A stretch of DNA of 64,000 nucleotides from Coriobacteriaceae bacterium. GTDB taxonomy: Bacteria > Actinomycetota > Coriobacteriia > Coriobacteriales > Atopobiaceae. Numbering within the stretch: position 1 is the stretch's first letter; each line of letters opens with the position of its first letter. The notes under the pieces are model-generated. The model did not search any database and was not told where the DNA came from. It saw nothing but the letters and a program-made list of their open reading frames with translations. Positions 3,687 through 52,521 of this stretch are shown in pieces. The stretch covers positions 1 to 64,000 of the forward strand of contig QOUO01000008.1 of NCBI GenBank assembly GCA_003862195.1, read 5' to 3'. The position numbers were made by a program, and so were the translations under genes.

Positions 3687-4585
3687 TTGCCCTCACCTCC
3701 CGAGGTGGTCGACGTGGAGTCGTCGCTCCTGGCGGACTGGTCCCAATTGACCGGGATGTAGCCCGCCTCCTCGATGGTCTTGGTCATCTCGTCGGAGAGG
3801 ACGAACTTGATGTACTGGAACGAGACCCCCTGCGGGTCGCCGTTGGTGAAGAAGTAGAGGTCGCGCGAGATGGGGTACTTCCCGTTGCTCACGTTGTCCT
3901 CGGTCGCGTTGACGCCGTTGACCGTGAGGGTCTTGACCGTCGTGGTGGCGTAGTCGCTCTTGACGAAGCCGATCGAGATGTAGCCGATGGCACCCGCCGA
4001 GCGGCTCACCACGTCGCGCACCTGCCCCGTGCCGGGGAGCACCGCGGCGCTGCGGTCGAACTCCGCGCCGCGCATGACGATGGAGCGGAAGGCCTCGCGC
4101 GTGCCCGAGGCCTCGTCGCGGTTGACGAGCTGGATGGCGAGGTCGGGGCCGCCGAGCTCCTTCCAGTTCTTGATCTTGCCCGCGTAGATGTCCCTCAGCT
4201 GGTCGAGCGTGACGTTCTTGACGGGGTTGGAGTCGTTCACGATGATCGCGATGCCGTCGTGCGCGATGACGGTGGAGACCAGCTCGTGGCTCGCCTCCTC
4301 CTTTGTGAGGTCGCGGCTGGAGCTCGCGATGTCCGCCGTGCCGCTGATGACGGCCTCGATGCCAGCTGAGGAGCCCAGGCCGGACACGAGGACCTGGTTG
4401 CCGGTCTTGGCCTCGAACTTCTCCGCGGCAATCTCCGCGATGGGGAGCACGGTGGTGGAGCCCGCAACCGTGATGGTGGTCTTGCCGGAGGACGTGGACT
4501 TAGTGCCGCTCCCGCAACCCGCGAGGGCGAGCACGAGCACGAGCGGTATCAGGGCAAGGAGGCGGTGGCGCCGTGGCGTCCGCAT
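3683..4585 (-). CDS. pstS: Phosphate-binding lipoprotein PstS
   Basis: Extracellular phosphate receptor of the Pst transporter and first gene of the leftward operon. I chose the ATG at 4585 because a GGAGAGGGGGAG ribosome site precedes it and the protein then starts with a normal lipoprotein signal: basic MRTPRRHR, a hydrophobic core, and lipobox LAGC with Cys near residue 22. A PstS-type phosphate-binding pattern follows: TITVAGSTTVLPIAE near the start, the loop GLGSSAGIEAV, and later NRDEASGTREAF and GAIGYISIGFV. The length of 300 is normal. An in-frame upstream ATG at 4636 would bury the signal peptide and is less likely. Confidence 0.95.
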   Translation of the reverse strand: MRTPRRHRLLALIPLVLVLALAGCGSGTKSTSSGKTTITVAGSTTVLPIAEIAAEKFEAKTGNQVLVSGLGSSAGIEAVISGTADIASSSRDLTKEEASHELVSTVIAHDGIAIIVNDSNPVKNVTLDQLRDIYAGKIKNWKELGGPDLAIQLVNRDEASGTREAFRSIVMRGAEFDRSAAVLPGTGQVRDVVSRSAGAIGYISIGFVKSDYATTTVKTLTVNGVNATEDNVSNGKYPISRDLYFFTNGDPQGVSFQYIKFVLSDEMTKTIEEAGYIPVNWDQSARSDDSTSTTSGGEGK

Positions 4586-12845: not shown

Positions 12846-12861
12846 GCGGGCGAGAAGGACG
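12846..12861 (+). repeat. Dispersed motif copy GCGGGCGAGAAGGACG
   Basis: In the gap upstream of the exporter gene, before the phased repeat array. Confidence 0.8.
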
Positions 12862-12916: not shown

Positions 12917-13182
12917 CCCACGTTTAACCCTCCAATCTGGGGACTAAACATGGTTGCCAGCGTTGTTTTTGGTTAAACGTGGAATCAAGCGCAGTTCTTG
13001 GGATAAAGATGGAATCGAGCGCGCTAATTGCATGACTGGGAGCCTCTGGAACCTAAACGTGGAATCCAGCGTGGCAGTTTGGCTAAACGTGGAGCCTTGC
13101 GTGCTGTTTTGTTTTGATATTTATGACAGCAATGCTAAACGTGGAATTTGGCGTCTTAGTTTCCTAAACGTGGAATTTGGCG
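12917..13182 (+). repeat. Array of phased 19-bp direct repeats, consensus CTAAACGTGGAATNNAGCG
   Basis: Seven direct copies start at 12944, 12973, 13003, 13053, 13083, 13135 and 13164, plus one inverted partial copy near 12917-12929. The intervals are 29, 30, 50, 30, 52 and 29 bp, close to three or five helical turns, while the sequence between copies differs. The core TAAACGTGGAA is exact in five copies. The tract is poorer in G+C than its neighbours and fills most of the 562-bp gap between the exporter and the response regulator. It contains no convincing gene: the only open frame (12954-13256) is merely the repeats read through. Multiple protein-binding sites, as in iterons, phased operators or a transposon end, are the best reading. 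Confidence 0.75.
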
Positions 13183-13338
13183 AGGAACTCCCACCGGAAC
13201 ACGACGTTCGCAGCCGGATGCGGCAGAAGACTCGCGGCGACCCGGGCCGACGCTAGTCGCACCGCGGTTGCGCTAAGGTAGAGGCACACAACTGGGCAGC
13301 GCGGCATGCGCCGGCGCTGCCGACGGAAGGGGGACCCG

Positions 13339-14019
13339 ATGGCCAAGATCTGCCTCGTGGAGGATGACGCCGCGGTGCGCGACCAGCTCGTCCTTCTCCT
13401 CCAGCACGCGGGGCACGAGGTGAGCGCCGTCACGCGCTTCGACAACCTCCCGGAGGACATCCTCGCCGCCAACCCCGACGCCGTGATCCTGGACCTCGGC
13501 CTGCCCGGGACCGACGGCCAGTACGTGGCGCGGGCGCTCCGCCAGCAGAGCAGCGTGCCGCTCATGGTGCTCACGAGCCGCACCTCGGAGCTCGACGAGC
13601 TCATGTCCCTCACGATGGGCGCGGACGACTTCGTGCAGAAGTCCACGAACCCGCAGCTCATCCTCGCGCACCTCGACGCCCTGCTGCGCCGCGGGAAGGC
13701 GGCGGCGCCCTCGGCCACGCTCGAGGAGGGCGGACTCACGCTCGACACCGTCCGCTCGCAGGCGAGCTACGGGGGGAAGACCACCGACCTCTCCCGCAAC
13801 GAGCTCCGCATCCTCGAGCTCCTCATGAGGCGCAAGGGCGGCATCTGCTCGCGCGAGGACCTGATGGAGGCGCTCTGGACGAGCGAGGCCTTCGTGGACG
13901 ACAACACGCTGACCGTGAACGTGAATCGGCTCCGCCAGACGCTCTCGCACCTGGGACTCAAGGGTGCGGTCGTCACCTTCCGCGGGCAGGGCTACGCCCT
14001 CAGGCTGGAGCGCGCATGA
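13339..14019 (+). CDS. OmpR-family response regulator, BceR-like
   Basis: Response regulator of 226 residues. The receiver domain (1-115) has the acidic pocket VEDD, the phospho-acceptor Asp in AVILDLGLPGTDG (about residue 54), Thr/Ser in VLTSR and Lys in DDFVQKS. The winged helix (about 130-226) has the DNA-binding helix LTVNVNRLRQTLS and wing FRGQGYAL. The start at ATG 13339 follows GGAAGGGGG five bases upstream. It overlaps the kinase gene by 4 bp and lies upstream of a BceAB-type transporter, the standard order for peptide-antibiotic sensing modules. Confidence 0.92.
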   Translation: MAKICLVEDDAAVRDQLVLLLQHAGHEVSAVTRFDNLPEDILAANPDAVILDLGLPGTDGQYVARALRQQSSVPLMVLTSRTSELDELMSLTMGADDFVQKSTNPQLILAHLDALLRRGKAAAPSATLEEGGLTLDTVRSQASYGGKTTDLSRNELRILELLMRRKGGICSREDLMEALWTSEAFVDDNTLTVNVNRLRQTLSHLGLKGAVVTFRGQGYALRLERA

Positions 14020-15125
14020 GGCTCTCCGACTACCTCAGGAGCCACGCCGCGCGCGTCACGTGCTCGCTCGTCCTCCTCATCGCAATCGCCGTGCTGCTCC
14101 CGCCCCTCGGCGTCGGCCGCGACGGCGTCCTTCTCGTCCTCATCATCTGCGCGGTCCTGGAGGCCATACCCTTTGCCTGGGGGTGGCTGCGCCAGCATAG
14201 CTTCAACGAGGCGCTGTCCGCCCTCGCACGCGAGGAGGAGGACGCCGTGTCGCTCGCCAAGGACCTGCCGGAGCCGGAGTACCCGGAGGGCGAGCTCGCG
14301 TGGCAGGCCATCCAGAACGTGGTGCGCGCGGCGCAGGCGGAAAGCAACGAGGCCCAGGCGAGCGTGGAGGAGTACCGCCGCTACGTGGAGACCTGGGTGC
14401 ACGAGGTCAAGACGCCGCTCGCGGCCTGCCGGCTCATGCTCGCCAACGCCAAGAGCCCCGACAACGCCCAGCTTTCGCGCGAGCTGGGGCGCATCGACTC
14501 CTACGTGGAGCAGGCGCTCTATTACGCGCGGAGCACGTCGGTGGAGAAGGACTACCTCGTCAGGGCCGTGCCCGCGGACCGGCTAGTGAAGGATGCCGTG
14601 AGCTCGCGCGCCCGCACGCTCATCGAGGCGCACATGGCCGTCGACCTCAGCGGCCTCGCCCAGCCGGACGGCACGGTGCCCGAGCTCTACTGCGACCCCA
14701 AGTGGATGGACTTCGTCCTCGGGCAGCTCATCGACAACGCAATCAAGTACCGCGCGCAGCCCCAGGCGGACGGTCGGGCGCCCAGGCTGTCCTTCTCCAC
14801 GCGCGTGGAGGACGCCGGCACCGCGCGCGAACGGGCCGTGCTCAGCGTGAGCGACAACGGATGCGGCATCGCGGAGGCGGACCTCCCCCGCGTCTTCGAC
14901 CGGGGCTTCACCGGGCAGAACGGCCGGAGCCACCAGAAGTCGACCGGCATGGGCCTCTACCTGGTACGGACGCTCTGCCAGAAGATGGGTCTCGCCGTGG
15001 GCGTGCGCTCCCGCGTGGGCGTGGGCACCACCATAGAGATCGCCTTCCCGCGCGAGCGCTCGCGCATGCTGCGTGACGTCACCGCAGGTCAGGACAGCAG
15101 TCCCGCGAACCTTACAGAAGTGTAA
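14016..15125 (+). CDS. Sensor histidine kinase, BceS-like (intramembrane-sensing)
   Basis: Kinase of 369 residues with two close N-terminal membrane helices (about 14-30 and 36-58) and almost no external loop. This is the hallmark of intramembrane-sensing kinases that take their signal from a partner BceAB transporter. The phospho-accepting His is in ETWVHEVKTPLAA (about 130). The ATPase domain has DNAIKY, SDNGCGIAEADL and KSTGMGLYLVRTL. It starts in ATGA overlap with the regulator gene. Its last codons and stop contain the regulator's predicted binding site. Confidence 0.92.
   Translation: MRLSDYLRSHAARVTCSLVLLIAIAVLLPPLGVGRDGVLLVLIICAVLEAIPFAWGWLRQHSFNEALSALAREEEDAVSLAKDLPEPEYPEGELAWQAIQNVVRAAQAESNEAQASVEEYRRYVETWVHEVKTPLAACRLMLANAKSPDNAQLSRELGRIDSYVEQALYYARSTSVEKDYLVRAVPADRLVKDAVSSRARTLIEAHMAVDLSGLAQPDGTVPELYCDPKWMDFVLGQLIDNAIKYRAQPQADGRAPRLSFSTRVEDAGTARERAVLSVSDNGCGIAEADLPRVFDRGFTGQNGRSHQKSTGMGLYLVRTLCQKMGLAVGVRSRVGVGTTIEIAFPRERSRMLRDVTAGQDSSPANLTEV
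15112..15125 (+). promoter_or_regulatory. BceR-type operator TTACA-N4-TGTAA
   Basis: The perfect palindrome TTACAGAAGTGTAA matches the TNACA-N4-TGTAA consensus described for BceR-like regulators. It overlaps the stop codon of the kinase gene. A TATGAT box at 15172-15177 lacks a good -35, as expected for an activated promoter, and bceA starts at 15213. Confidence 0.7.
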
Positions 15126-35952: not shown

Positions 35953-36852
35953 CTAGACCTCCTCGGTACCCGGCTTGCCGGAGTATCCCTTGAGCTTGCC
36001 GCCATACACCGGGAAGAAGCTGGAGTCCCCGTAGTCCTTGATCTTCTCCACGTGCTTCAGGGTCTCCATGTCCTCGGCAGAAATCTGGAAGTCGACGTCC
36101 GCGTTGCTCCTCATGTGCTCTGGGTTCGCGGTCTTGGGCAGGGTGATCATGCCAAGCTGGAGGTCGTAGCGGATGCAGAGCTGCGGCACGGTGACGCCGT
36201 ACTTCTCGGCCATCTGGGCGATCGTGGGGTTCTTGAGCGCCTCGCCGTGCGCCACGGGGCTGTAGGCCTCCATCACGATGCCCTTGGCCTGGCAGTACTC
36301 GATCAGGTCGAGCGGCGTGTTGGAGATGTGGCACAGCACCTGGTTCACCATGGGCTTGACCTCGGTGTTGTCCCAGATGTTGTCGATGTCGCCCTGCAGG
36401 AAGTTCGACACGCCGATGGCGCGAATCTTGCCGGCCTTGTACGCGTCGGTCAGCGCGCGCCAAGCCTCGAGGTTACCCTCGTAGTAGCGGTCGTCGGACT
36501 GGTTGACCTCAAGCCACGGCTGCGGGCTGTGGATGATCATCATGTCAAGGTAGTCCAGGCCCATGGCCCCGAGCGACTCGTCGATGCTCCGGGCCGCGGA
36601 CTCGTAGTCCTTGTGCTCGGCCGCAACCTTCGTGGTCACGAAGAGCTCCTCACGCGGGACGCCGGCCGTACGCATGCCCTCGCCCACGCCGCGCTCGTTG
36701 GCGTAGGCCTGTGCGGTGTCAAAGTGGCGGTAGCCGATCTCCACGGCCTCGCGCACGGCCTCGGCGGCCTTGTCGTCGTCGATGAGCCAGGTGCTCAGGG
36801 CCAGCTGGGGAACCTCGACGCCGTTGCTGAGGGTCACGTTCTTCTCGTACAT
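35953..36852 (-). CDS. Aldo/keto reductase
   Basis: NAD(P)H-dependent carbonyl reductase of 299 residues, TIM barrel. It has GYRHFDTAQAYANERGVG with the catalytic Asp and Tyr, VTTKV (Lys), IIHSPQPW (His), IRAIGVSNF, and the C-terminal coenzyme site ITLPKTANPEHMRSN. The ATG at 36852 follows GGAGG. The first codons (MYEKNVTLSN) overlap a reverse dispersed-motif copy. It is similar in length and start to 2,5-diketo-D-gluconate-reductase-like enzymes; the substrate is unknown. Confidence 0.92.
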   Translation of the reverse strand: MYEKNVTLSNGVEVPQLALSTWLIDDDKAAEAVREAVEIGYRHFDTAQAYANERGVGEGMRTAGVPREELFVTTKVAAEHKDYESAARSIDESLGAMGLDYLDMMIIHSPQPWLEVNQSDDRYYEGNLEAWRALTDAYKAGKIRAIGVSNFLQGDIDNIWDNTEVKPMVNQVLCHISNTPLDLIEYCQAKGIVMEAYSPVAHGEALKNPTIAQMAEKYGVTVPQLCIRYDLQLGMITLPKTANPEHMRSNADVDFQISAEDMETLKHVEKIKDYGDSSFFPVYGGKLKGYSGKPGTEEV

Positions 36853-37041
36853 TGCTCCTCCTTCGGTCTGTTTCCCCATCCATTCTGAGGGCGGGTCGCC
36901 GCAATAACAATTACTTAGAACACATACCGTGCCATGCAGGGAACGCATGGCAACCCTGTGTCACATGCTCACAAGCTGACGGCCCGCGCCGTGCGATAAT
37001 GGGCCACAAGCCAACGACGGCAGGATCAGAAGGGCGGACGC

Positions 37042-37878
37042 ATGTACAAGCTCGTTGCAAGCGACATGGACGAGACGTTCCTCGGGTCGGACCACGAGGT
37101 GCCCCAGGCCAACATCGAGGCGATCCGCGAGCTGCGCGAGCTCGGCTGCCTCTTCGTCCCGGCGTCGGGCCGCGCCTACGGCTCCGTCATGGAGTCCCTG
37201 GCTGCCATACCGCCCGAGCTCCTGCAGGGCTCCTACCTCATCAGCTACAACGGCGGCTGCATCAACCGCGTCGGCGACCCCAAGCCGCTCTCATACCACA
37301 CGCTCCCCCACGCCAAGGTGGACGCGCTCTACCGCTACGGCATCGCCCTCGGCTGCGTGAGCATGCACGTCTACGAGGTCTGCGGCAAGGTCTGGGCCTG
37401 GCACCTCCAGCCAGAGGAGGTCAGCTACCTGGCCGGCCACATGGGCTATGAACCCACGGACGAGCCCACGCTCGACTTCCTCGCAAACGTGCCCCTCGCA
37501 AAGATCCTCTACTGCATCCCGGACGGCGCGGACAGGCTTCGCCAGGTCGAGAAGGACATGCCCCGCGACCTCAAGGCGGGTACCTCCACGACCTTCAGCT
37601 CCGGCCGCTACCTCGAGTTCAACCCCGAGGGCGTGGACAAGGGCGCAGGCCTCCGCAAGCTGGCCGAGCTCCTGGGCATCGACCTTGCCCAGACCATAGC
37701 CGTGGGCGACGCCGCCAACGACGCGAGCATGGTCGAGGCGGCGGGCGTGGGCGTCTGCGTCGCCAACGCGCGCGACGGCCTGGACCAGGTGGCCAACTAC
37801 CGCGCCGCATCCACCAACGACGACGGCGTGCTCAAGGAGATACTGGAGAAGATCGTGCGTCCGGCCGCCGAGGCATAG
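37042..37878 (+). CDS. Cof-type HAD-IIB phosphatase
   Basis: 278-residue cytoplasmic HAD hydrolase. Motif I is SDMDETFLGSDHEV (nucleophile Asp near residue 8), motif II is VPASGR, then a C2 cap at about 85-190, motif III Lys in GVDKGAGLRKLAELLG, and motif IV GDAANDASMVEAAGVGVCVANA. Cof-type members dephosphorylate sugar phosphates, FMN or PLP. The start is ATG 37042, after GAAGGGCGGACGC. It is divergent from the aldo/keto reductase. Confidence 0.92.
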   Translation: MYKLVASDMDETFLGSDHEVPQANIEAIRELRELGCLFVPASGRAYGSVMESLAAIPPELLQGSYLISYNGGCINRVGDPKPLSYHTLPHAKVDALYRYGIALGCVSMHVYEVCGKVWAWHLQPEEVSYLAGHMGYEPTDEPTLDFLANVPLAKILYCIPDGADRLRQVEKDMPRDLKAGTSTTFSSGRYLEFNPEGVDKGAGLRKLAELLGIDLAQTIAVGDAANDASMVEAAGVGVCVANARDGLDQVANYRAASTNDDGVLKEILEKIVRPAAEA

Positions 37879-38200
37879 CGCCCGTTCGTACCGATACCTG
37901 CCTCCCGTCCACAATGGAGCTCCATTCTCAAATAATGCAACCGTGCATAATGCACGGTTGCATTAAATGACCTACCGTGAGGTTCGCAAGCGGAAGAAGC
38001 AAACCCGACGTGTCCAAGGCCTTCTACGCGAAGAACAATTTCTGGACAGTCGTCGTTTGCGGACACTGCTGCGTGCTCGGACACAGGAGTCTCCCCTATG
38101 GGCGTGAGACCGCCTGAAGGCAATCGGACCCTGCAGACGTAGTAGCCCGCCAGCTCGCCCTCAGGTATCATCAACCCGAGGCACGCCGATTGGAGACGCA
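37879..38200. other. 322-bp gap with a long perfect hairpin
   Basis: No gene is supportable. It holds the palindrome at 37934-37964 and the promoter region of the pRiA4b-type gene; TTGGAGACGC before 38201 is the ribosome site. The remainder shows nothing I can name. Confidence 0.4.
37934..37964. repeat. Perfect 14-bp palindrome AATGCAACCGTGCA-TAA-mirror
   Basis: The two 14-bp arms match exactly around a 3-nt loop. It sits 56 bp after the HAD gene stop. It has the same geometry as the hairpin at 41997-42027 but a different sequence. Confidence 0.85.
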
Positions 38201-39220
38201 ATGGACGAGAACGACCTCCTGCACGACCTTACGCTCATGCTCCTCTACCTCACATCCAAGGACAAGAAGGTCGCCGGCCGCACGCTCTCGCGCGCGAGCA
38301 AGACCTACGACGGCACCGTCCTCGACAAGCTATGTCGCGAGGGCTTCATCGACACCACGCCCGCGTCGAAGACCGCCGACCTTACACAGGAGGGCACGAA
38401 CGTTGCCGAGATGCTGGTCAAGGTGTATGGCTCTCTCGTGGGCGACTTTCAGCACGAGCTCTCCGAACGCCTCATGGATGCCCTCCCACGCACTAACGAG
38501 CCGGCCTTCCGCTTCCGCGTCGAGCTTGACCTGGGAGGTCGCCCCTGCTGGCGCGAGATCGTGGTTCCACAGGACTTTACGTTCGCCGACCTCCACGACG
38601 TGATCCAGGCGTCATTCCTCTGGTGGGACTACCACCTCTACGACTTCCATCTCACCAACAACCGCAAGAAGCTGATGCTCGCGGATCCCTCCTCCGGCGG
38701 CGTGGACTCGATGTTCGACACCGGACGTGCGTTCGAGGATGCCACGCTTACCTACCTCGATGACATCTTCCCCCGCACGAGGACTGCCATCTACTCCTAC
38801 GACTACGGCGACGGTTGGGAGCACAAGGTCAAGCTCGTCGAGACTATCAAGAGCTACCCTGGCGAGATGCCCGCGTGCACCGCCGGCGCTGGTGATGCGC
38901 CTCCCGAGGACGTCGGTGGCCCTGGCGGCTTCGATCGTCTCCTGGTAACGCTTGCTGGCCCTAAAGGCCGCGAGCGTGACGAGGCCCTTGTGTGGGCAAA
39001 GTCCCAGGGGTTCGAGCACTTCAACCTCGACAGGGTCAACGATCGCATCCGCAAGTGGCGCACAGGCGAGCTCCTCGCGGAGTGGGATGAGCTTCATCCA
39101 GACGAGCTGGATGGCTACGACCCCTTCATCGACCTTCCGCCAAGCGGCGACATGGAGGGCGGCTCCAACTCCGGCAAGCGCAAGGGCCTTGGTTCAGGCA
39201 ACCTGAGGCTGGTCCCTTAG
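38201..39220 (+). CDS. pRiA4b ORF-3-like protein with N-terminal DUF6429-like domain
   Basis: 339 residues. The first 60 (DENDLLHDLTLMLLYLTSKD, TLSRASKTYDGTVLDKLCREGFI) resemble the short DUF6429/winged-helix module. Residues about 105-310 match the plasmid pRiA4b ORF-3 domain (RFRVELDLGGRPCWREIVVP, ADLHDVIQASFLWWDYHLYDF, YSYDYGDGWEHKVKL, DVGGPGGFDRLL). The family is widespread on plasmids and in mobile regions; its function is not established. A polar Ser/Gly tail closes the protein. Flanking long hairpins and a DUF4143 ATPase nearby suggest acquired DNA. Confidence 0.85.
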   Translation: MDENDLLHDLTLMLLYLTSKDKKVAGRTLSRASKTYDGTVLDKLCREGFIDTTPASKTADLTQEGTNVAEMLVKVYGSLVGDFQHELSERLMDALPRTNEPAFRFRVELDLGGRPCWREIVVPQDFTFADLHDVIQASFLWWDYHLYDFHLTNNRKKLMLADPSSGGVDSMFDTGRAFEDATLTYLDDIFPRTRTAIYSYDYGDGWEHKVKLVETIKSYPGEMPACTAGAGDAPPEDVGGPGGFDRLLVTLAGPKGRERDEALVWAKSQGFEHFNLDRVNDRIRKWRTGELLAEWDELHPDELDGYDPFIDLPPSGDMEGGSNSGKRKGLGSGNLRLVP

Positions 39221-39645
39221 CCGCTTGCAGGCGCATAGGGCATGCGACGGATGCATTATCCGGGGCCTTCCTCCAAGATCCAAGGGCACGGGGAGAAGAG
39301 CTTCGGCTTTTGCATCGCTGGCATTCCGAAGGCCGTTGAGAACGTGCTCCACCCTTCCCTCTCATCGTTAGCCCCATCGGCAATGCCTGAAGTATCGTAA
39401 ATGCGGCCGCAAAAATTAACGGCCGCATTTACGCGCGCCCGATGTACGATTCCCTGCAAGTTACTAGGATAGCCAAGTACAGTTGACAACCCGTCCATCA
39501 GTATCGCAAGTATACATATGCATGCAAGCCGCTAGGCCAGAAGACATGGCCTCTGGCCTGCAAATCTAACGGTAGGCACAATAAGGTGTCAGCCTCCGAC
39601 CCCCCGCATCTGCCTGGTGCTCGGCTGCGCCGACACCCCCCAGCG
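39221..39645. other. 425-bp gap with a palindrome, no gene
   Basis: It contains a weak motif relative (ACGGGGAGAAGAGC near 39287), the palindrome at 39396-39433, a TTGACA box at 39483 and an A/T-rich stretch GTATACATATGCATGC near 39510. No coding frame shows family features. Confidence 0.4.
39396..39433. repeat. Perfect 14-bp-arm hairpin CGTAAATGCGGCCG...mirror
   Basis: Arms 39396-39409 and 39420-39433 are exact reverse complements around a 10-nt A-rich loop. This is the second of three such hairpins within 4.1 kb. Confidence 0.85.
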
Positions 39646-40917
39646 TCACTTACGCAAGAGCCAGCGATAGAGCGGCATTACCTCGATCTTGGCACCTCCC
39701 ACCTCGATGATTCTCTCATCATCCGAAAGCGTGACGATGACCAACCTCTTCGGCGCAAGCCTCTCGTCTGACGCAAGCGCGACAAGGCTCGACGTCTCCC
39801 GGTCAAAATCGCCCTCGTCAAGCACCAGACAAACCTGAACTGCCGCATCCTCCTGGGGTATGTAGAAGTCGACGTCGATTCTGTTCTTCGATGACTTCAG
39901 GAACCACAGCTCGTCGCCGTGCCTCCTCCTGAGGTCGCAGGCGACAGCGTTCTCCAAAAGCAGCGACTTCTTGTCAATGAGGAATAGTGCCAAGAGGCCA
40001 TTGTCCATGAAGTAGTACTTAGATGCGCCCTCGCGCTCCGAGAACTTCGCCACGTAGTTTTTCGCGTTGAACAGGAGGTATGCCTCCACGGCGTAATTGA
40101 CGTAGGAGATCACCGCATCGGTACTGCAGTTAACCCCAGTGGCCGTCACCGCCTTGCGCAGACGACCGAACGTGACGTCGCTCGTCACCGTCTCCGCCAC
40201 CTTTTTCATGAGAACCCTCAGCGCATGCAGGTTCCGTATCGCGTAGCGGGCAGCAATGTCCCCAAGCAGCACCTTCTGATAGACACTTTCTGCGTAGACC
40301 CTGCGGTTCTGGTAGTTCACGGATTCCGGCAGGCCTCCCGTCTCCAGATAAGTCTCCGCCGCCGCCCGGACCTTCCCGTTTAAACGGGTAGCGTAGAGCG
40401 CCTCCTCGTCGTGACGCACCCCCTTCGCATCAAGGTACTCCTCGAAGCTGTAGGGCATCACCTCCCGCACGAGGTAGCGTCCTCCAAGGCGTTGTGCCAT
40501 CTCGCCACTGAGCATCGACGCGTTGCTTCCGGTAATGTAGACGCACTCGTGCGCGTCCGCCATTCTGCGGGCAAAGCGCTCCCACCCAGTGATGTTTTGC
40601 ACCTCGTCAAGGAAGTAATAAGCGCGGTTGTCTGTGAGCTCGGCTGCCGTCTGGACAATGTCGTTGAAGTCGGAGAGGTCGAACTCCGCAAGTCGCTCAT
40701 CCTCGAAGTTCAGGTAGATAATCTGGTCCCATCCAACCCCCGAATCGATGAGCTCGAGCGCACGCTGGTAGAGCAGAGTCGACTTTCCCGCCCTCCTCAT
40801 TCCCACGGAGATGTAGTTAGCGCCCTCCTCGAAAAAGTAGTCGCGCTCCACGATCTGGCTGGTACGGATGACTTCGCGCTGGTCGTAAATTACCTGCTTG
40901 ATAATGCTGTGGTCCAT
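39646..40917 (-). CDS. AAA-type ATPase with DUF4143 domain
   Basis: 423 residues. N-terminal AAA domain: Walker A SVGMRRAGKSTLLYQ (about 38-52), Walker B YYFLDEVQNITGWERF and sensor VYITGSNASMLSGEMAQRLGGRY. The C-terminal DUF4143 region (about 210-423) ends in a PD-(D/E)XK-like strand-helix, KSSKNRIDVDFYIPQEDAAVQVCL. Such genes are frequent and variable in gut bacteria and archaea, and their function is unclear. The ATG at 40917 is followed by MDHSIIKQVIYDQREV. Two TATAATCGAC boxes stand upstream. It lies between long hairpins in a mosaic region. Confidence 0.9.
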   Translation of the reverse strand: MDHSIIKQVIYDQREVIRTSQIVERDYFFEEGANYISVGMRRAGKSTLLYQRALELIDSGVGWDQIIYLNFEDERLAEFDLSDFNDIVQTAAELTDNRAYYFLDEVQNITGWERFARRMADAHECVYITGSNASMLSGEMAQRLGGRYLVREVMPYSFEEYLDAKGVRHDEEALYATRLNGKVRAAAETYLETGGLPESVNYQNRRVYAESVYQKVLLGDIAARYAIRNLHALRVLMKKVAETVTSDVTFGRLRKAVTATGVNCSTDAVISYVNYAVEAYLLFNAKNYVAKFSEREGASKYYFMDNGLLALFLIDKKSLLLENAVACDLRRRHGDELWFLKSSKNRIDVDFYIPQEDAAVQVCLVLDEGDFDRETSSLVALASDERLAPKRLVIVTLSDDERIIEVGGAKIEVMPLYRWLLRK

Positions 40918-40956
40918 GGCATCGTCACGTTCCTCAGGCGCCTGGTTGGATTGTAC

Positions 40957-40998
40957 GTCGATTATAGTCGATGATATTTCTGCTGTTTGTCGATTATA
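40957..40998 (-). promoter_or_regulatory. Two TATAATCGAC boxes 32 bp apart upstream of DUF4143 ATPase
   Basis: Read on the minus strand, TATAATCGAC occurs at 40957-40966 and 40989-40998, three helical turns apart. Each contains a perfect TATAAT, so they may be tandem -10 elements or an operator overlapping the promoter. Confidence 0.55.
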
Positions 40999-41126
40999 TC
41001 CGACAGAATGCCAAGGTCATCCTCGATGTGGTTCACCTACTGCGGCCATTACGGATGAGAAAAACAGCGGATCCTTCTGAGACCTCGCCGGATACCACCG
41101 CGAAGATCGCCCCGTGGGACGATCAA

Positions 41127-41142
41127 CGTTCTTCTCGCCCCC
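41127..41142 (-). repeat. Dispersed motif copy GGGGGCGAGAAGAACG
   Basis: Reverse orientation, 145 bp upstream of the MFS relic. Confidence 0.8.
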
Positions 41143-41287
41143 GCCTTCTGCTACAGTATCGCCTACAGTTCATCGGAGGCCGCTGGCCGCAGCCAGCACG
41201 TGCCAGAGAAGATGTCGAGTGCGCTCGGAAACCCAAAAGGTGGCCGGGCGCATTTTCATGCGCTGCCACATAGTGAACGGACGGAGC

Positions 41288-42016
41288 ATGGCCGAATCCT
41301 GGCTCAAGGTCCCCCAGACCAAACTCCGCACGCCTGGGCTTCTCGCCCTACTCTCGCTCATCGCCATCATGATGCCGCTGGCGCTCGATATGTACACGCC
41401 CGCGATTCCGCACATGTCCGAGCACCTGAACACCACCGAGTCGATGGTCAACCTCACGCTCGTGGGCTACAGCCTGTTCTTCTCGATCAGCGCAATCATG
41501 ACTGCACTCGGGCCCTTTGCCTGGACGTTCGCGTCACGGTTCACCACGCCCAAGCGCTTCCTCACCACGGCACTTCTCGTCTCCCTCTTCGCCGGAGCTG
41601 CCATGGTCTTCACGGGTACCGCAAGCCCGTTCCTCTTCGCGCTCCTGTTCTGCGTGTTCGCCGTTTGCGAGGCGGCCCAGCGCCCGCTCACGGTCAACAT
41701 CCTCCTCACGCAGCAGGACGAGTGCGTGGGCACCGCGTCATCGCTCATCAACTTCATCCTGTCGGCGGCGGGAAGCCTCGGCATGCTCGTCGTGCACATG
41801 CCGGCGCCCAACTACGTGGTCGCCCTCGGCGTCACCATCGCGCTCAGCATGGCCGTCTCACTTGCGGGTTGGTTCGCGCTCCTGCGCTCCCCGATTTCGG
41901 TTAGGGGGCTTAGGTGGAGAGGGCGATGCCCCCAGGCCAGCCGATTCGTTTTCGTCATCGTACGAATCCACCAGCTCGTCCTTTTCGTGTGGCGCAAAAC
42001 CGTACGATTATCGTAA
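41288..42016 (+). pseudogene. Internally deleted MFS transporter (Bcr/CflA-like) relic
   Basis: The frame starts well: ATG 41288, then LLALLSLIAIMMPLALDMYTPAIPHMSEHLNTTESMVNLTLVGYSLFF, the first two helices of a Bcr/CflA-type drug:H+ antiporter. It then jumps to late helices (PFLFALLFCVFAVCEAAQRPLTVNILLTQQDECVGTASSLINFILSAAGS) and ends in WFALLRSP. About 150-170 residues, with the usual motif A region and central loop, are missing, leaving roughly six of twelve helices. The final 45 codons (from ISVRGLRW) read through non-coding DNA into a palindrome. It is judged non-functional. Confidence 0.8.
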
Positions 42017-42027
42017 TCGTACGGTTT
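41997..42027. repeat. Perfect 14-bp palindrome AAACCGTACGATTA-TCG-mirror
   Basis: Exact 14-bp arms around a 3-nt loop. An outer imperfect pair (CGTACGAATC near 41959 and GATTCGTGCG near 42028) extends the symmetry. Confidence 0.85.
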
Positions 42028-42077
42028 GATTCGTGCGATTTGTAGGCGCACTCTACACCACGAGGAACAACTTCGAA

Positions 42078-42093
42078 CAGGGCGAGAAGGACG
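42078..42093 (+). repeat. Dispersed motif copy CAGGGCGAGAAGGACG
   Basis: Between the MFS relic and tRNA-Val. Confidence 0.75.
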
Positions 42094-42207
42094 TGGCACC
42101 CTCGCTCGCTCCTCACCAAACAGGGTGCTCCGCGTGGACCAAGACGTGGACCATTTGTGGACCAAAAGAAAGCAGCTCAGAGACGATGCCTCTGAGCTGC
42201 GAGTTTA

Positions 42208-42282
42208 TGGTGGGCGTTAGAAGATTTGAACTTCTGACCTCTTCCGTGTCAGGGAAGCGCTCTCCCCCTGAGCTAAACGCCC
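42208..42282 (-). tRNA. tRNA-Val (anticodon GAC)
   Basis: Reading leftwards from 42282: acceptor GGGCGTT pairs with AACGCCC; D arm with GCTCAGGGGGAGAGC; anticodon stem CTTCC/GGAAG with 7-nt loop CTGACAC, i.e. anticodon GAC; T arm AGAAGTTCAAATCTTCT; discriminator A at 42211 and an encoded CCA at 42208-42210. All four stems pair, so it should be functional. Confidence 0.95.
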
Positions 42283-42424
42283 GAATGTTGTGCCGCTGGG
42301 GTTGCAGCAGTTGGTAACTCTACGGGAATGCGAAGCCAAGCGCAAGCGAAAATGCCAAGCAGACGATTTCTCCGCAAATGGCGCCTATCGATTGCCAGCC
42401 AGGGCAGGCTGCCGGCAGGAAAGC

Positions 42425-42440
42425 CGTTCTTCTCGCTCGC
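42425..42440 (-). repeat. Dispersed motif copy GCGAGCGAGAAGAACG
   Basis: Reverse orientation, 20 bp outside the 3' end of the DegV gene. Confidence 0.75.
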
Positions 42441-42460
42441 GTTGGGTCGCTTGCCGTGGG

Positions 42461-43303
42461 TTACGCGTCCTTGGAGAAGTATGCCACGGCGATGGCGCCG
42501 GGACCCACGTGCGTGCCGATGGTCGCGCCGACGGTGGTGATGGGCAGCGCGTCCACGATGCCCTCCCAGAGGTCGCGCGAGTCGCGCACGTACTTGCGCA
42601 GCATCGCCTCGCCGCCCGCGGTGCAGGCGAGCGAGAAGGGCATGGCAAAGTCGATGGGGTGCTCGTCCACGAGCTGGACCAGGAGGTTCCTCGCGTTCTT
42701 GGAGCCGCGCGCCTTGCCGAGCAGCTGGATGCTGCCGTCGGTCATCGTGACGACCGGCTTGATGGAGAGGAGCATGCCCGCCGCGGCCGCCGCCGACCCG
42801 ATGCGCCCGCCGCGCCGCAGGTATTCGAGGGTGTCGAGAAGCCCGAGCATGCGGACGCGCGACCGCGCGGCCTCGAGGCGTGACGCGACCTCCGCCGCGG
42901 GCAGGCCACGCTCCGCCAGCATGAGCGCGTACTCCACGAGCACGCGCTGCCCGATGCAGGAGTTGAGCGAGTCGACCACGTGGACGTTGGGCCGCCCCTC
43001 GGCCGCGATGCACGCGCTCTGCCAGGTGGCCGAGACCTTGGACGACAGCGTCACGACCACGACGTCCTCCCCCACGGCGGTCGCGGCGTCGTAGGCCTCC
43101 GCGAACGCGCCGGGCGACACGGCCCCGGTGCTGGGCAGCGTGTCGGACTCCACCAGCAGCTCGAAGAACCGCTCGTGCGTGAGGTCGACCCCGTCGTGGT
43201 AGACGGTGTTCCCAAACGCGACCGTCAGCGGGAGCACGGTGAGGCTTGGGTTGGGAAAGTCCACGATGTCGGACGCGGAATCCGTGATGATGCGAACTGG
43301 CAT
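42461..43303 (-). CDS. DegV-family fatty-acid-binding protein
   Basis: 280 residues. DegV/FakB proteins hold a fatty acid and, in Gram-positive bacteria, present it to the kinase FakA. Visible blocks are MPVRIITDSASDI, VYHDGVDLTHERFFELL, LPSTGAVSPGAFAEAYD, VVVVTLSSKVSATWQSA, DSLNSCIGQRVLVEYA, LDTLEYLRRGGRIGSAAA and the end GTHVGPGAIAVAYF. The ATG at 43303 has GGGGAGGGGACAG upstream. Transcribed alone; no fakA neighbour in the window. Confidence 0.93.
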   Translation of the reverse strand: MPVRIITDSASDIVDFPNPSLTVLPLTVAFGNTVYHDGVDLTHERFFELLVESDTLPSTGAVSPGAFAEAYDAATAVGEDVVVVTLSSKVSATWQSACIAAEGRPNVHVVDSLNSCIGQRVLVEYALMLAERGLPAAEVASRLEAARSRVRMLGLLDTLEYLRRGGRIGSAAAAAGMLLSIKPVVTMTDGSIQLLGKARGSKNARNLLVQLVDEHPIDFAMPFSLACTAGGEAMLRKYVRDSRDLWEGIVDALPITTVGATIGTHVGPGAIAVAYFSKDA

Positions 43304-43385
43304 GGCTGTCCCCTCCCCCGGGCGGCGCCCGGCGGCAGTAGTGGTTGCGTAACTTATGACATTTGGTATGGCGCGGCAGGCGCGG

Positions 43386-43847
43386 CTACTCGATCTTCTC
43401 GAGCGACTTGAGCACCTGCTTGAGCCACCCGTAGCAGCGGCGGCGCTCCTCGGGAGTGATGTCGGCGCTCGCCCGTTCGACCACATCGTCGATGATCCGG
43501 TCCATCTCGAGCGCGGCCTCGCGCCCGCGGGCCGTGAGCGTGACCGGCGCGCGGTACCTGGAGCCGCGCCCGGCCGATGCCGTCGCATCGTCCGTGAGGT
43601 CGCGCTCCACCAGGCCGCTCTTCTCCAGGCGCGACACGATGCGCGTCACCGCGGCGCGGTCCTGCCGCATCAGCCGCGCGATGTCCGCCTCGTGCAGGCC
43701 CTCGGGCGAGTGCGCGAGGTAGTACAGGACCATGGTGTCGGTCCCGCACAGGCCCAGCGACTCCATCTTCTGCGTCTTGATGCGGCCGACCTCCTTGTTG
43801 AGCGCGTACACCAAGCCCACGAAGTTCTCGAACCTGTCGTTGGCCAC
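43386..43847 (-). CDS. MarR-family transcriptional regulator
   Basis: 153-residue winged-helix regulator: VLYYLAHSPEGLHEADIARLMRQDRAAVTRIVSRLEKSGLVERDLTDDATASAGRGSRYRAPVTLTARGREAALEM. The wing carries a longer, Gly/Ser/Ala-rich insert than usual. I placed the start at GTG 43847 because GGGGAG lies six bases before it; in this case the ribosome site and spacer (GGGGAGAAGAAC) themselves resemble the dispersed motif. It is co-directional with DegV, 82 bp away. Ligand and targets are unknown. Confidence 0.85.
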   Translation of the reverse strand: MANDRFENFVGLVYALNKEVGRIKTQKMESLGLCGTDTMVLYYLAHSPEGLHEADIARLMRQDRAAVTRIVSRLEKSGLVERDLTDDATASAGRGSRYRAPVTLTARGREAALEMDRIIDDVVERASADITPEERRRCYGWLKQVLKSLEKIE

Positions 43848-49160: not shown

Positions 49161-49515
49161 CAAGGCGAGAACTTCTCCCAAACCCGAGCAACTCGCCAGT
49201 CGAATCTCGGGAAATGCCACGCTCTTGCATATCTCACCTTACTACTGACAACCTACTGACAAGTACTGTTTACTACTGCCAAGCCCGCTTAGGGTGCATT
49301 TCTCCCTTGGAGTCGGCTTTCGCGCCGCAGCCGGTTTTTCGCATCATAATCATCGCCAAAGACCTCTCAACAACTCCTCATACCTCTGGTGCGAAAGCTA
49401 CCGTTCAGATGGTACGAACGTTCACGTTGAGGCCAACACCGCCAAGATGCCTATCATTAGGAGTCATGTAGCCGCCTTGTCCTCTCGGACATGGCACGTT
49501 TGACGGGAGTTGGCC
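49161..49515 (+). promoter_or_regulatory. cas9 upstream region with three CTACTG repeats
   Basis: 355-bp gap with no gene. CTACTGACAA at 49242 and 49253 and CTACTGCCAA at 49273 are phased at 11 and 20 bp. The composition shifts to A/T-richer here, marking the left border of the CRISPR island. GGGAG at 49505-49509 is the cas9 ribosome site. Confidence 0.5.
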
Positions 49516-52500
49516 ATGGCAGAACCTTACCTTGTGCTTGGACTTGATCCAGGCATCTCCAGCTGCGGATTCGCTCTTCTTGACATGAATAACCACAAGA
49601 TTCTCGAGATGGGGTCGCACCTGTTTGACGCCCCGCAGGAGAGCGATAAAAAAGTCAGCCTTGCCGTCAAAAGGCGCAATGCCCGAAGCGCTCGTCGAAA
49701 CAATCTCAGGACCAAGAACCGTCAGAAGCACTGCATGGAGCTACTGAAGGAAGCGGACCTTGTTCCCCAAGACGCCACCAAGCAATGGTTCCAGTCCGCA
49801 AAGGGCGATCGCCCCCTGCTCGAGCTGCGTTTTGCGGCGCTCGAGCGCCCTCTCACCAATCGTGAGTTTGCTCAAGTCCTCTATGCGCTCTCAGCGCGCA
49901 GGGGATATATCCCTCACGGCGAGGGTCGCATCAGCAAGATTTCCGACGTAGACACGAGCGGCACCTCTGATGCCGAGACGGGCAAGGTCCTCAAAGCTAT
50001 CGGCGAGAACAACAAACTCATGGCACAGGGACACTTCCGCACCGTAGGCGAGATGCTCTACAACCAGGGCAAGTCGCGCAACAAGAGAGGCTCCTACGAA
50101 CATTGCGTACTAAACAGCCAAATTGTGGATGAGGTCCGCGCCATCTTCCAGAGTCAACGTTCGTATCAGAACCCAATTGCCACCCAAGAGCTTGAGGATG
50201 CCTACATCGAAAACCTTACATGGGAGAAGAGAACGCTTGACCATGACGCCAAGGTCTACGCACTCGTGGGCAAGTGCGTCTACTTTTCCAACGATGAGAA
50301 TCGGGCGGCACGCGCAGACCTCTCGTCGGAGCTTTGCAATGCCTACGAGCGTCTCAAGCACCTGCGCATCGTGAACGCCGACGGCGACGAGACTGCTCTT
50401 GCCCCCGAGCAGGTCGAGGCCTACATCGCCATTCTCTTCTCTCCCGAGCCTCTTAAGGGTAAGAAGGAGAAGGTCACATACGCGCGTATCCGCAGGGATC
50501 TCGACCTCTCCGCGCGCCTCTTCTTCAAGGGAATCGACCCAGAGGACGAAAAGGACCACGAGCCATATGCCCCGAAGGCGTGGCGTACCATGCGCAAGGT
50601 CCTCTCCCCCGAACTCATGGAACGTCTCCGAAGCGACCGCACGCTTGCCGACGCCGTTGGTGAGGCGCTCACCTATGCCAGCACCGAGGACAGCCTCCTC
50701 TATCAGCTTGACAATCTTGACCTTAGCGATGAGGAGCGCAACCAGATTCTGGGTCTTCCCTTCTCGGGCAAGATCTTCAAGGGCTATGGCTCGCGATCGC
50801 TCAAGGCACTCGATATGCTTATCGACGCCTTCGAGGAGCCAGAGGTTACCACACTTGCCGAGGCGGAAGAGAGCTCCGGCCTCCTGGGCCTGCGCATGAG
50901 CGATAGCGGTACTCGCTACCCACTCCTGCCTCCGTACAGCACCTATGACAAGGAGAACAGGAACCCCGTCGTCCTGCGTGCCATGGGCCGCATGCGCCGC
51001 ATCGTTAACGCAATCATCCGCATCTACGGTGTCCCAGACGAGATTCATGTCGAGCTTGGGCGTGACCTTAAACGCTCGAAGCATGAGAAGGACCTCATCA
51101 ACAAACGCGACCGCGAGAATGAACGCAAGAACAAGCAATGGCGCGCGCAGATTGCAGAGGCGCAGGGAATCGATCCAGACGAGGTGCGCCCAAAGCTCCT
51201 CAAGAAGATTGCCCTCTGGGAGGAGCAGGACAACTTCGATATATACACCGGTCACAAGATCGAGTTCGACCGCATGATTTCCGATGACAAGTACTGTGAG
51301 ATCGACCATGTGCTCCCCTACTCGCGCACTTGCGACGACAGTCGGAACAACAAGGTGCTCGTGCTCTCCAAGTCCAACCAGGACAAGCGCGAGCGTACCC
51401 CATACGAATGGATGACCCAGGACGCACAGAAAGGCGCACCCAGCTGGGACGAGTATCAAGCGCGCGTCATCGCAAACCACCACATCTCGCCCAGAAAGCG
51501 CAGATACCTACTTAACAACAATCTCGGTCCCGACCAAGAACGAGACTTCCTCAGTCGCAACCTAAACGATGATCGCTACATGTCACGTGCGGTCAAGAAT
51601 TACCTTGAGGACTCGCTCATCTTTCCTAAAGATGGAAGGGTGAGGCACGTTATTGCCGTAGCTGGCGGCGCCACGGGAAGCCTTCGTCACGTGTGGGGCC
51701 TAAACTTTGGTGCAAACAATACCAAGGACCGTTCTGACGATCGCCACCACGCCGTAGACGCCTGCGTCATCGCAGCATGCTCCGAGGCAACCGTGCAGGC
51801 TGTCGCCAAGGCACACAAGCTTGGAGTAGAGACTTACAAGCACATGCGCGAGGACCGACTAAAGAACACACAGCCTTGGCCCACCTTCGCCGACGAAGTC
51901 ATCGCTCGCAGGGAGTTCATCATCCCAACACGCATGGTCTCTCATGGCGTCACAGGACAAGCGTTTAAGGACACCAACTACCGCTTTGTCGGCTTGACTA
52001 ATGACACCAAGAAGCTCGGTGTCCTCTATTACAAAGGGAAGTTTACCAAGGAGGGCAATTTCGTCATTGGCGACGACGGCAATGCACGCCTAGTCGACGG
52101 CATGGCTTTCCTGCGTCTTTGGCTCGATCCCACAGCAAAGAAGGGGAAGGGTAAATGGTACGCAGAGCCCGTCTACTATGCAGACATTCCCGCCATCAAG
52201 AACGGCACCTATATACCCAAGGCGGGAAAACGTGGAGTTGCAAGAATTGTATGGGAACCGATATCGCAGGTAGCACGTAACACTAAACCGCTCGTTCTAT
52301 TCCGTGGTGATGTCATTAGCATGGGTGGCCATACTGTAAGATATTGGTCTTTTAGCATCAATACATTAACCTTAAGGACAAGGGACTTAATCACCGGAGC
52401 TGAGTACAAGGGCTTCCCTACCATCAACCAATGGAGCAGAGATTCGTATCCAAAGAAGATCCAAGAGGACTGCCTTGGCCATTGCTATAAAGGGTTGGTA

Positions 52501-52521
52501 CCAAGCTCACTAGAAGACTAA
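49516..52521 (+). CDS. cas9: Cas9 nuclease, compact type II-C
   Basis: RNA-guided DNA endonuclease of 1001 residues, in the short type II-C size class. Start ATG 49516 (MAEPYLVLGLDPGISSCG) is preceded by GGGAG; a TTG at 49510 is less likely. RuvC-I Asp is D11 (GLDPG); an Arg-rich bridge helix covers about 55-85 (KRRNARSARRNNLRTKNRQK); RuvC-II Glu is E513 (VELGRD); the HNH core is C-EIDHVLPYSRTCDDSRNNKVLV with D597/H598; RuvC-III has H744-H745 and D748 (DRHHAVDACVIAA). All catalytic residues are present. The C-terminal 200 residues should read the PAM. The gene is A/T-richer than its surroundings and overlaps the convergent cas2 by 12 bp. Confidence 0.97.
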   Translation: MAEPYLVLGLDPGISSCGFALLDMNNHKILEMGSHLFDAPQESDKKVSLAVKRRNARSARRNNLRTKNRQKHCMELLKEADLVPQDATKQWFQSAKGDRPLLELRFAALERPLTNREFAQVLYALSARRGYIPHGEGRISKISDVDTSGTSDAETGKVLKAIGENNKLMAQGHFRTVGEMLYNQGKSRNKRGSYEHCVLNSQIVDEVRAIFQSQRSYQNPIATQELEDAYIENLTWEKRTLDHDAKVYALVGKCVYFSNDENRAARADLSSELCNAYERLKHLRIVNADGDETALAPEQVEAYIAILFSPEPLKGKKEKVTYARIRRDLDLSARLFFKGIDPEDEKDHEPYAPKAWRTMRKVLSPELMERLRSDRTLADAVGEALTYASTEDSLLYQLDNLDLSDEERNQILGLPFSGKIFKGYGSRSLKALDMLIDAFEEPEVTTLAEAEESSGLLGLRMSDSGTRYPLLPPYSTYDKENRNPVVLRAMGRMRRIVNAIIRIYGVPDEIHVELGRDLKRSKHEKDLINKRDRENERKNKQWRAQIAEAQGIDPDEVRPKLLKKIALWEEQDNFDIYTGHKIEFDRMISDDKYCEIDHVLPYSRTCDDSRNNKVLVLSKSNQDKRERTPYEWMTQDAQKGAPSWDEYQARVIANHHISPRKRRYLLNNNLGPDQERDFLSRNLNDDRYMSRAVKNYLEDSLIFPKDGRVRHVIAVAGGATGSLRHVWGLNFGANNTKDRSDDRHHAVDACVIAACSEATVQAVAKAHKLGVETYKHMREDRLKNTQPWPTFADEVIARREFIIPTRMVSHGVTGQAFKDTNYRFVGLTNDTKKLGVLYYKGKFTKEGNFVIGDDGNARLVDGMAFLRLWLDPTAKKGKGKWYAEPVYYADIPAIKNGTYIPKAGKRGVARIVWEPISQVARNTKPLVLFRGDVISMGGHTVRYWSFSINTLTLRTRDLITGAEYKGFPTINQWSRDSYPKKIQEDCLGHCYKGLVPSSLED

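Follow-up and report, generated by a model that had tools for sequence, protein, structure and literature searches.

Three perfect hairpins, H1, H2 and H3, lie within 4.1 kb of the analysed window, a stretch of 64,000 nucleotides that is part of contig C123 of a Coriobacteriaceae genome (2.42 Mb in 155 contigs), and analysis of the genome and its relatives revealed that the frequency of such hairpins is unexceptional and ordinary for the genus. We consider H1-H3 to be gene-end hairpins, most likely weak, T-poor transcription terminators working in both directions, with a probability of roughly 0.6. The novelty of the interval would lie in the AAA_14/DUF4143 ATPase gene and the arrays found upstream of such genes, not in the hairpins.

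Geometry and surroundings of the three hairpins

H1 (37933-37965; arms of 16 bp, loop of 1 nt) is located 54 bp past the stop codon of a HAD-type (Cof-like) hydrolase gene (37042-37878, + strand; family scan), whose best matches in relatives showed 28-32% identity. H2 (39396-39433; arms of 14 bp, loop of 10 nt) lies between two convergent genes, encoding a pRiA4b ORF-3-like protein with DUF6429 (38201-39220, + strand; family scan) and an AAA_14/DUF4143 ATPase (39646-40917, - strand; Pfam scan), at 175 and 212 bp from their respective stop codons. H3 (41997-42027; arms of 14 bp, loop of 3 nt) overlaps the end of a broken Bcr/CflA-like MFS frame (41240-42016, + strand) that matches profile positions 7-64 of 385 only. 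The ATPase scored 105.9 bits against AAA_14 (cut-off 27) and 42.6 bits against DUF4143 (cut-off 28.1); of 396 class genomes, 19 contained this gene (E <= 1e-80) and 16 the pRiA4b-like gene (E <= 1e-30).

The preliminary description had recorded three exact hairpins with 14-bp arms, unrelated in sequence and devoid of a terminator T-run. All three are present and exact, and only the extent of H1 had to be revised, from 14-bp arms at 37934-37964 to the 16-bp arms given above. The three sequences do differ, apart from AATGC..CCG, which by eye is common to the arms of H1 and H2. Likewise, no classic T-run follows any of the stems on either strand: the 8 bases past the stem contain 2, 0 and 3 T on the + strand, and 3, 3 and 1 T on the - strand, for H1, H2 and H3, respectively. 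The GC content of the hairpins was 0.42, 0.50 and 0.39 in the same order, and their predicted RNA folding was more stable than that of shuffled sequences in all six foldings (both strands, three sites; z -2.7 to -6.4). H3 is further surrounded on the + strand by a second helix of 12 bp, between 41958-41969 and 42028-42039, with one G-U pair. A terminator scan of positions 36900-42500 called five sites, with H1, H2 and H3 not among them, and an Rfam scan of positions 36800-43000 at E <= 1 gave a tRNA as the sole match.

Membership in a family of repetitive extragenic palindromes was rejected, as H1 and H3 matched only themselves in their own genome and H2 only one relative. A search of 140 family genomes turned up no relative of either H1 or H3, and hence no material for a covariation test of these two. 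Weak matches to the H3 flank in four other of these family genomes (E 0.001-0.008) looked by eye like unrelated and mostly coding sequence. Integron attC sites were also set aside, since their length and bulges, as we understand them, do not fit.

Perfect hairpins at gene ends in the genome and the genus

Perfect inverted repeats (arms of at least 12 bp, loops up to 14 nt) were counted in 46 stretches of the own genome including the window (674,573 bp, 28%), a non-random sample that includes contig starts and selected places of interest (C25, C90, C123), and in 400,000 bp of G002, a relative assembled in one contig, for comparison, with a single Markov run per genome as control. Each species was represented by one genome, and the gene calls underlying hairpin positions, 3' ends and upstream repeats came from a simple codon-usage script. 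The own sample contained 48 such repeats, 25 of them with arms of at least 14 bp (H1-H3 counted), and the G002 sample 24, 14 of them with arms of at least 14 bp. The Markov controls yielded 0 in G002 and 2 in the own sample, both with 12-bp arms. The idea that H1-H3 are chance palindromes is thus refuted for practical purposes and retains hardly any probability: 2 simulated repeats stand against 48 observed, and arms of at least 12 bp were never produced in eight first-order Markov simulations of the window. Most repeats were intergenic (46/48 in the own sample and 22/24 in G002), and 27/48 and 10/24, respectively, were located no more than 100 bp from a predicted gene 3' end.

When one mismatch and G-T pairs were allowed and all 457 qualifying gene 3' ends among those sampled in the genus were scored, 215 carried a hairpin whose score exceeded the 95th percentile of controls taken within genes, with a median arm of 14. 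The 8-base tails of these 215 hairpins contained 2.7 T on average, and 102 of them contained two T or fewer; gene ends in the genus thus commonly bear long hairpins that lack a clear T-run. H1, H2 and H3 ranked between 67th and 113th of the 457 by this score. The occurrence of three hairpins in 4.1 kb had a probability of about 0.02 per 64 kb and 0.57 per whole genome, values that assume uniform scatter and were computed post hoc, after the cluster had been seen. T-poor long perfect hairpins are a usual gene-end feature of this genus, and as such they should not be taken on sight as marks of insertion.

From the exact pairing, the preliminary description had deduced a recent origin or active maintenance and had suggested insertion edges or protein sites, naming similar hairpins after ordinary operons as the sign of plain terminators. 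The survey largely produced that sign, in the intergenic share, the proximity to 3' ends and the 215 of 457 gene ends given above; because similar hairpins stand at many ordinary gene ends, neither a recent origin nor special protein sites are needed. Two results speak against a flat terminator verdict. GC content was under 0.56 in 10 of the 48 own-sample repeats, H1-H3 all included, and only two of these ten (H1 and H3) were within 100 bp of a 3' end, compared with 25 of the 38 others (p = 0.013); in addition, H2 lies far from both stop codons. This low-GC group, other members of which stand beside accessory-type genes, leaves room for a second, non-terminator class of hairpins.

The terminator reading is favoured by the position of H1 shortly past a stop codon, of H3 across one and of H2 between convergent genes, whereas the absence of a T-run, the remoteness of H2 from both stops and the lower frequency of low-GC repeats near 3' ends count against it. 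In such terminators, pairing of the A-rich end of one arm with the T-rich end of the other would leave little of a T-run outside the stem. Transcription of the HAD gene would stop at H1, H2 would form the boundary between the convergent pRiA4b and ATPase genes, and H3 that between the broken MFS frame and transcription leaving a nearby tRNA-Val gene. The closeness of the three would be explained by the accretion of small accessory genes in this zone, next to a tRNA-Val integration hotspot.

The need for a U-tract is disputed, since of two titles referenced in a review (PMC12288462), one calls it dispensable and the other required. H1-H3 resemble the I-shaped (U-tract-less) terminators of mycobacteria in having a stable hairpin past a stop codon and a T-run that is short or absent, but they come from another actinobacterial class, H2 is far from the stops, and termination by H1-H3 is a prediction. 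The same review describes the I-shaped form as the predominant intrinsic terminator of Mycobacterium tuberculosis, and also states that intrinsic terminators are scarce in mycobacteria, where Rho-dependent termination dominates (PMC12288462). Most predicted termination hairpins, according to another paper, are found no further than 80 bases from the stop codon, and they often form clusters (PMC8355165); H2 would be an exception to this 80-base rule. Our literature search found no report on hairpins in Coriobacteria or islands in Olsenella.

Two further hairpin types were noticed in the same samples. The sequence GGGCGAGAAGGACG recurs in intergenic DNA, often as one arm of gene-end hairpins and also as single arms (window positions 12848, 18095, 35853, 42080 and 46735; L013 10219, L022 3954, L102 3481 and L066 10074), and seems to be a terminator sequence preferred in the genus. 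G002 contains clusters of perfect hairpins with CTGACAG/CTGTCAG and paired changes in the outer stem (L066 19151-19552, L070 66-166 and L075 14063-14169).

The tRNA-Val locus and the relative of H2

An intact tRNA-Val(GAC) gene was detected at 42208-42282 (- strand) by tRNA search and Rfam. It is directly followed by a T-run hairpin (42172-42200, - strand) that is conserved with copies in the own genome and relatives, and further downstream by three GTGGACC (GGTCCAC) repeats (42135-42164, - strand), which we take to be possible integrase arm sites. The 3' end of this tRNA gene, together with the stretch downstream of it, was aligned with nine further sequences, copies or candidate copies, of the own genome and relatives. 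A profile of nine rows, with the candidate at 39.5 kb itself left out, identified a copy, now decayed, of the tRNA-Val 3' end with its downstream hairpin at 39536-39601 (- strand; E 8.3e-6 within the window). Judged by its sequence, this attachment remnant marks an old integration hotspot, and it places the ATPase gene, the broken MFS frame and H3 between the intact tRNA and the remnant. As in known tRNA-gene integration hotspots, an intact tRNA gene, a decayed 3'-end copy 2.6 kb away and accessory genes between them are found together; the locus differs in that the remnant is far decayed and that no integrase-like frame was noticed by eye in the translations of 39536-42208.

H2 has a single relative, at 4196-4245 of stretch L039 on the own contig C25, with 80% identity over 50 bp, and each of the two lies about 100 bp beyond a tRNA-Val copy. 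The homology reaches the hairpin and then stops (score beyond it 109, versus up to 169 for shuffles). Comparison of the 14 stem pairs revealed 8 unchanged, 2 compensated (T-A to A-T and G-C to A-T) and 4 non-standard on the aligned strand, three of the latter becoming G-U pairs when the opposite strand, which runs towards the tRNA, is read; on that strand the C25 stem is also followed by a T-run. The comparison fits a maintained H2 structure, so that the maintenance suggested in the preliminary description is hinted at for this hairpin by two compensated pairs. As support for a terminator it is limited to covariation in a single homologue, in which part of the outer stem is disrupted.

These data also bear on the view that H1-H3 are structural edges of inserted DNA, either arms of attachment sites or ends of integrated elements. 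The decayed tRNA-Val copy, the shared distance of H2 and its relative from a tRNA-Val copy with homology ending at the hairpin, and the location of H3 on the same side, at a distance of about 180 bp from the end of the tRNA, all agree with it. We nevertheless regard it as quite improbable: the tRNA-Val profile found no attachment-like sequence near H1, an H2-type hairpin occurs at only 2 of 10 aligned tRNA-Val places (H2 and its relative), and hairpins of this kind also occur commonly at a distance from tRNA genes. The accessory nature of the segment noted in the preliminary description holds, and H2 does lie at the edge of the attachment remnant, but since it is the decayed tRNA-Val copy that marks the old hotspot, the term insertion edge fits the surroundings of H2 only.

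To the right of the tRNA, a DegV-type gene is conserved, with 78 and 83% identity in G001 and G002. The tRNA-Val gene is inverted relative to DegV compared with both relatives (42208-43588 against L052 and L053), indicating that the locus has been rearranged, unless this is an assembly effect. An AAA_14 gene lay beside tRNA-Val or its attachment copy at four of the eight places compared, namely in the window (39536-42282), on the own contig C25 (L039 4027-5578) and on contigs C26 and C4 of G001 (listed with L052 6661-7373 and L055 7286-8398), as if this gene were a frequent cargo of the tRNA-Val hotspot.

Repeat arrays upstream of AAA_14/DUF4143 genes

Two palindromic sites, a putative operator, precede the ATPase gene of the window at 40956-40973 and 40988-41005 (- strand), about 32 bp apart. 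Their core TCGANTATA, picked post hoc from the upstream sequences, had 41 matches on both strands in 3,040 bp (160 bp before the start at 19 loci), where a full palindrome scores twice because both strands are counted, and 1 match in the other 76,719 bp. The core was found upstream of 16 of 19 class members, the window gene counted; in the remaining three, variant palindromes were seen by eye (GTTCTGTATACAGAAC-type in L124, GTCC/GGAC half-sites in L138 and near matches in L135). The upstream palindromic sites are conserved across the class.

Repeats upstream of AAA_14 genes were also frequent in the genus. Among 23 AAA_14 loci, taken from 33 rows with 10 weaker matches left out, including near-orthologues from three genomes and with start codons chosen by rule, 12 contained some 11-mer at least three times in the 170 bp ahead of the gene, versus 14 of 500 genes and 10 of 394 control genes whose free upstream DNA measured 120 bp or more. 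At least four copies were found at 7 of the 23 loci, versus 1/500 and 0/394 in the controls. The spacing was near multiples of 11 bp (22-24, 33-34, 46) in 8 of the 12 arrays. The window gene has just two 11-mer copies, and 4 of the 23 loci have no repeat. In the arrays inspected (40956-41005; L122-L139, L220-L246), position is conserved and sequence varies between subfamilies, with TGTCGA and GTTCTG types among the others.

The arrays are iteron-like. They share with the phased operator arrays of self-regulating genes the palindromic or direct copies upstream of the gene, often 22-24 or 33-34 bp apart; they differ in that the site sequence shifts between AAA_14 subfamilies, and the sites, which concern 40956-41005 and not H1-H3, are putative. 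We infer that AAA_14/DUF4143 genes may be autoregulated via these upstream sites. The literature searched contained no report of arrays upstream of DUF4143/AAA_14 genes; an entry for an AAA 14, DUF4143 gene appears in the table of one paper.

H1-H3 might themselves be protein sites, that is, operators of accessory genes comparable to these arrays and to the hairpins of a Fic-like gene. In favour of this, the link to gene ends is looser among the low-GC repeats. One of these ten, L019 4259, belongs to the repeat array preceding another AAA_14 gene; a second, L088 15801, consists of a doubled palindrome located 40 bp ahead of a gene start; and a further two stand on either side of the Fic-like gene in L096. 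Near-copies of CGTACGAAT were also seen by eye around H3. Such a role is unlikely, as the next gene start is 235 bp from H1 and none is faced by H2 or H3, the ATPase gene already has its own upstream sites, and no hairpin like H1, H2 or H3 was seen by eye at other pRiA4b and DUF4143 loci. The terminator reading remains the preferred one for H1-H3.

Among the other loci compared, perfect repeats of at least 11 bp do occur at 6 of 15 with pRiA4b and 5 of 18 with DUF4143, but these repeats are, by eye, unlike H1, H2 and H3, and hairpins travelling with either gene were rejected. A search of the genome contigs for pRiA4b gave 80 loci; the hairpin counts refer to the 15 above. The pRiA4b relatives L109 and L110 have hairpins about 120 bp past the matched part. 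The perfect hairpins in L096 (12952-12993 and 14309-14350) are related to each other through CTGTTATTAGA/TCTAATAACAG arms and flank the gene at 13096-14286, which we take from its translation to be Fic-like. Elsewhere in the window, a long open frame at 49510-52521 presumably encodes Cas9, judging by its translation.

It is an even bet, in our estimation, that the AAA_14/DUF4143 genes of the class are small mobile accessory genes, many with a private, helically phased upstream array whose site sequence switches by subfamily, as if each ATPase recognised and controlled, or assembled on, its own array; some low-GC perfect palindromes, perhaps H1-H3, may be such sites. If this is true, a widespread ATPase family, whose DUF4143 is scarcely named in the literature searched, would gain a testable DNA target, and the natural array variants might let its protein-DNA code be read.
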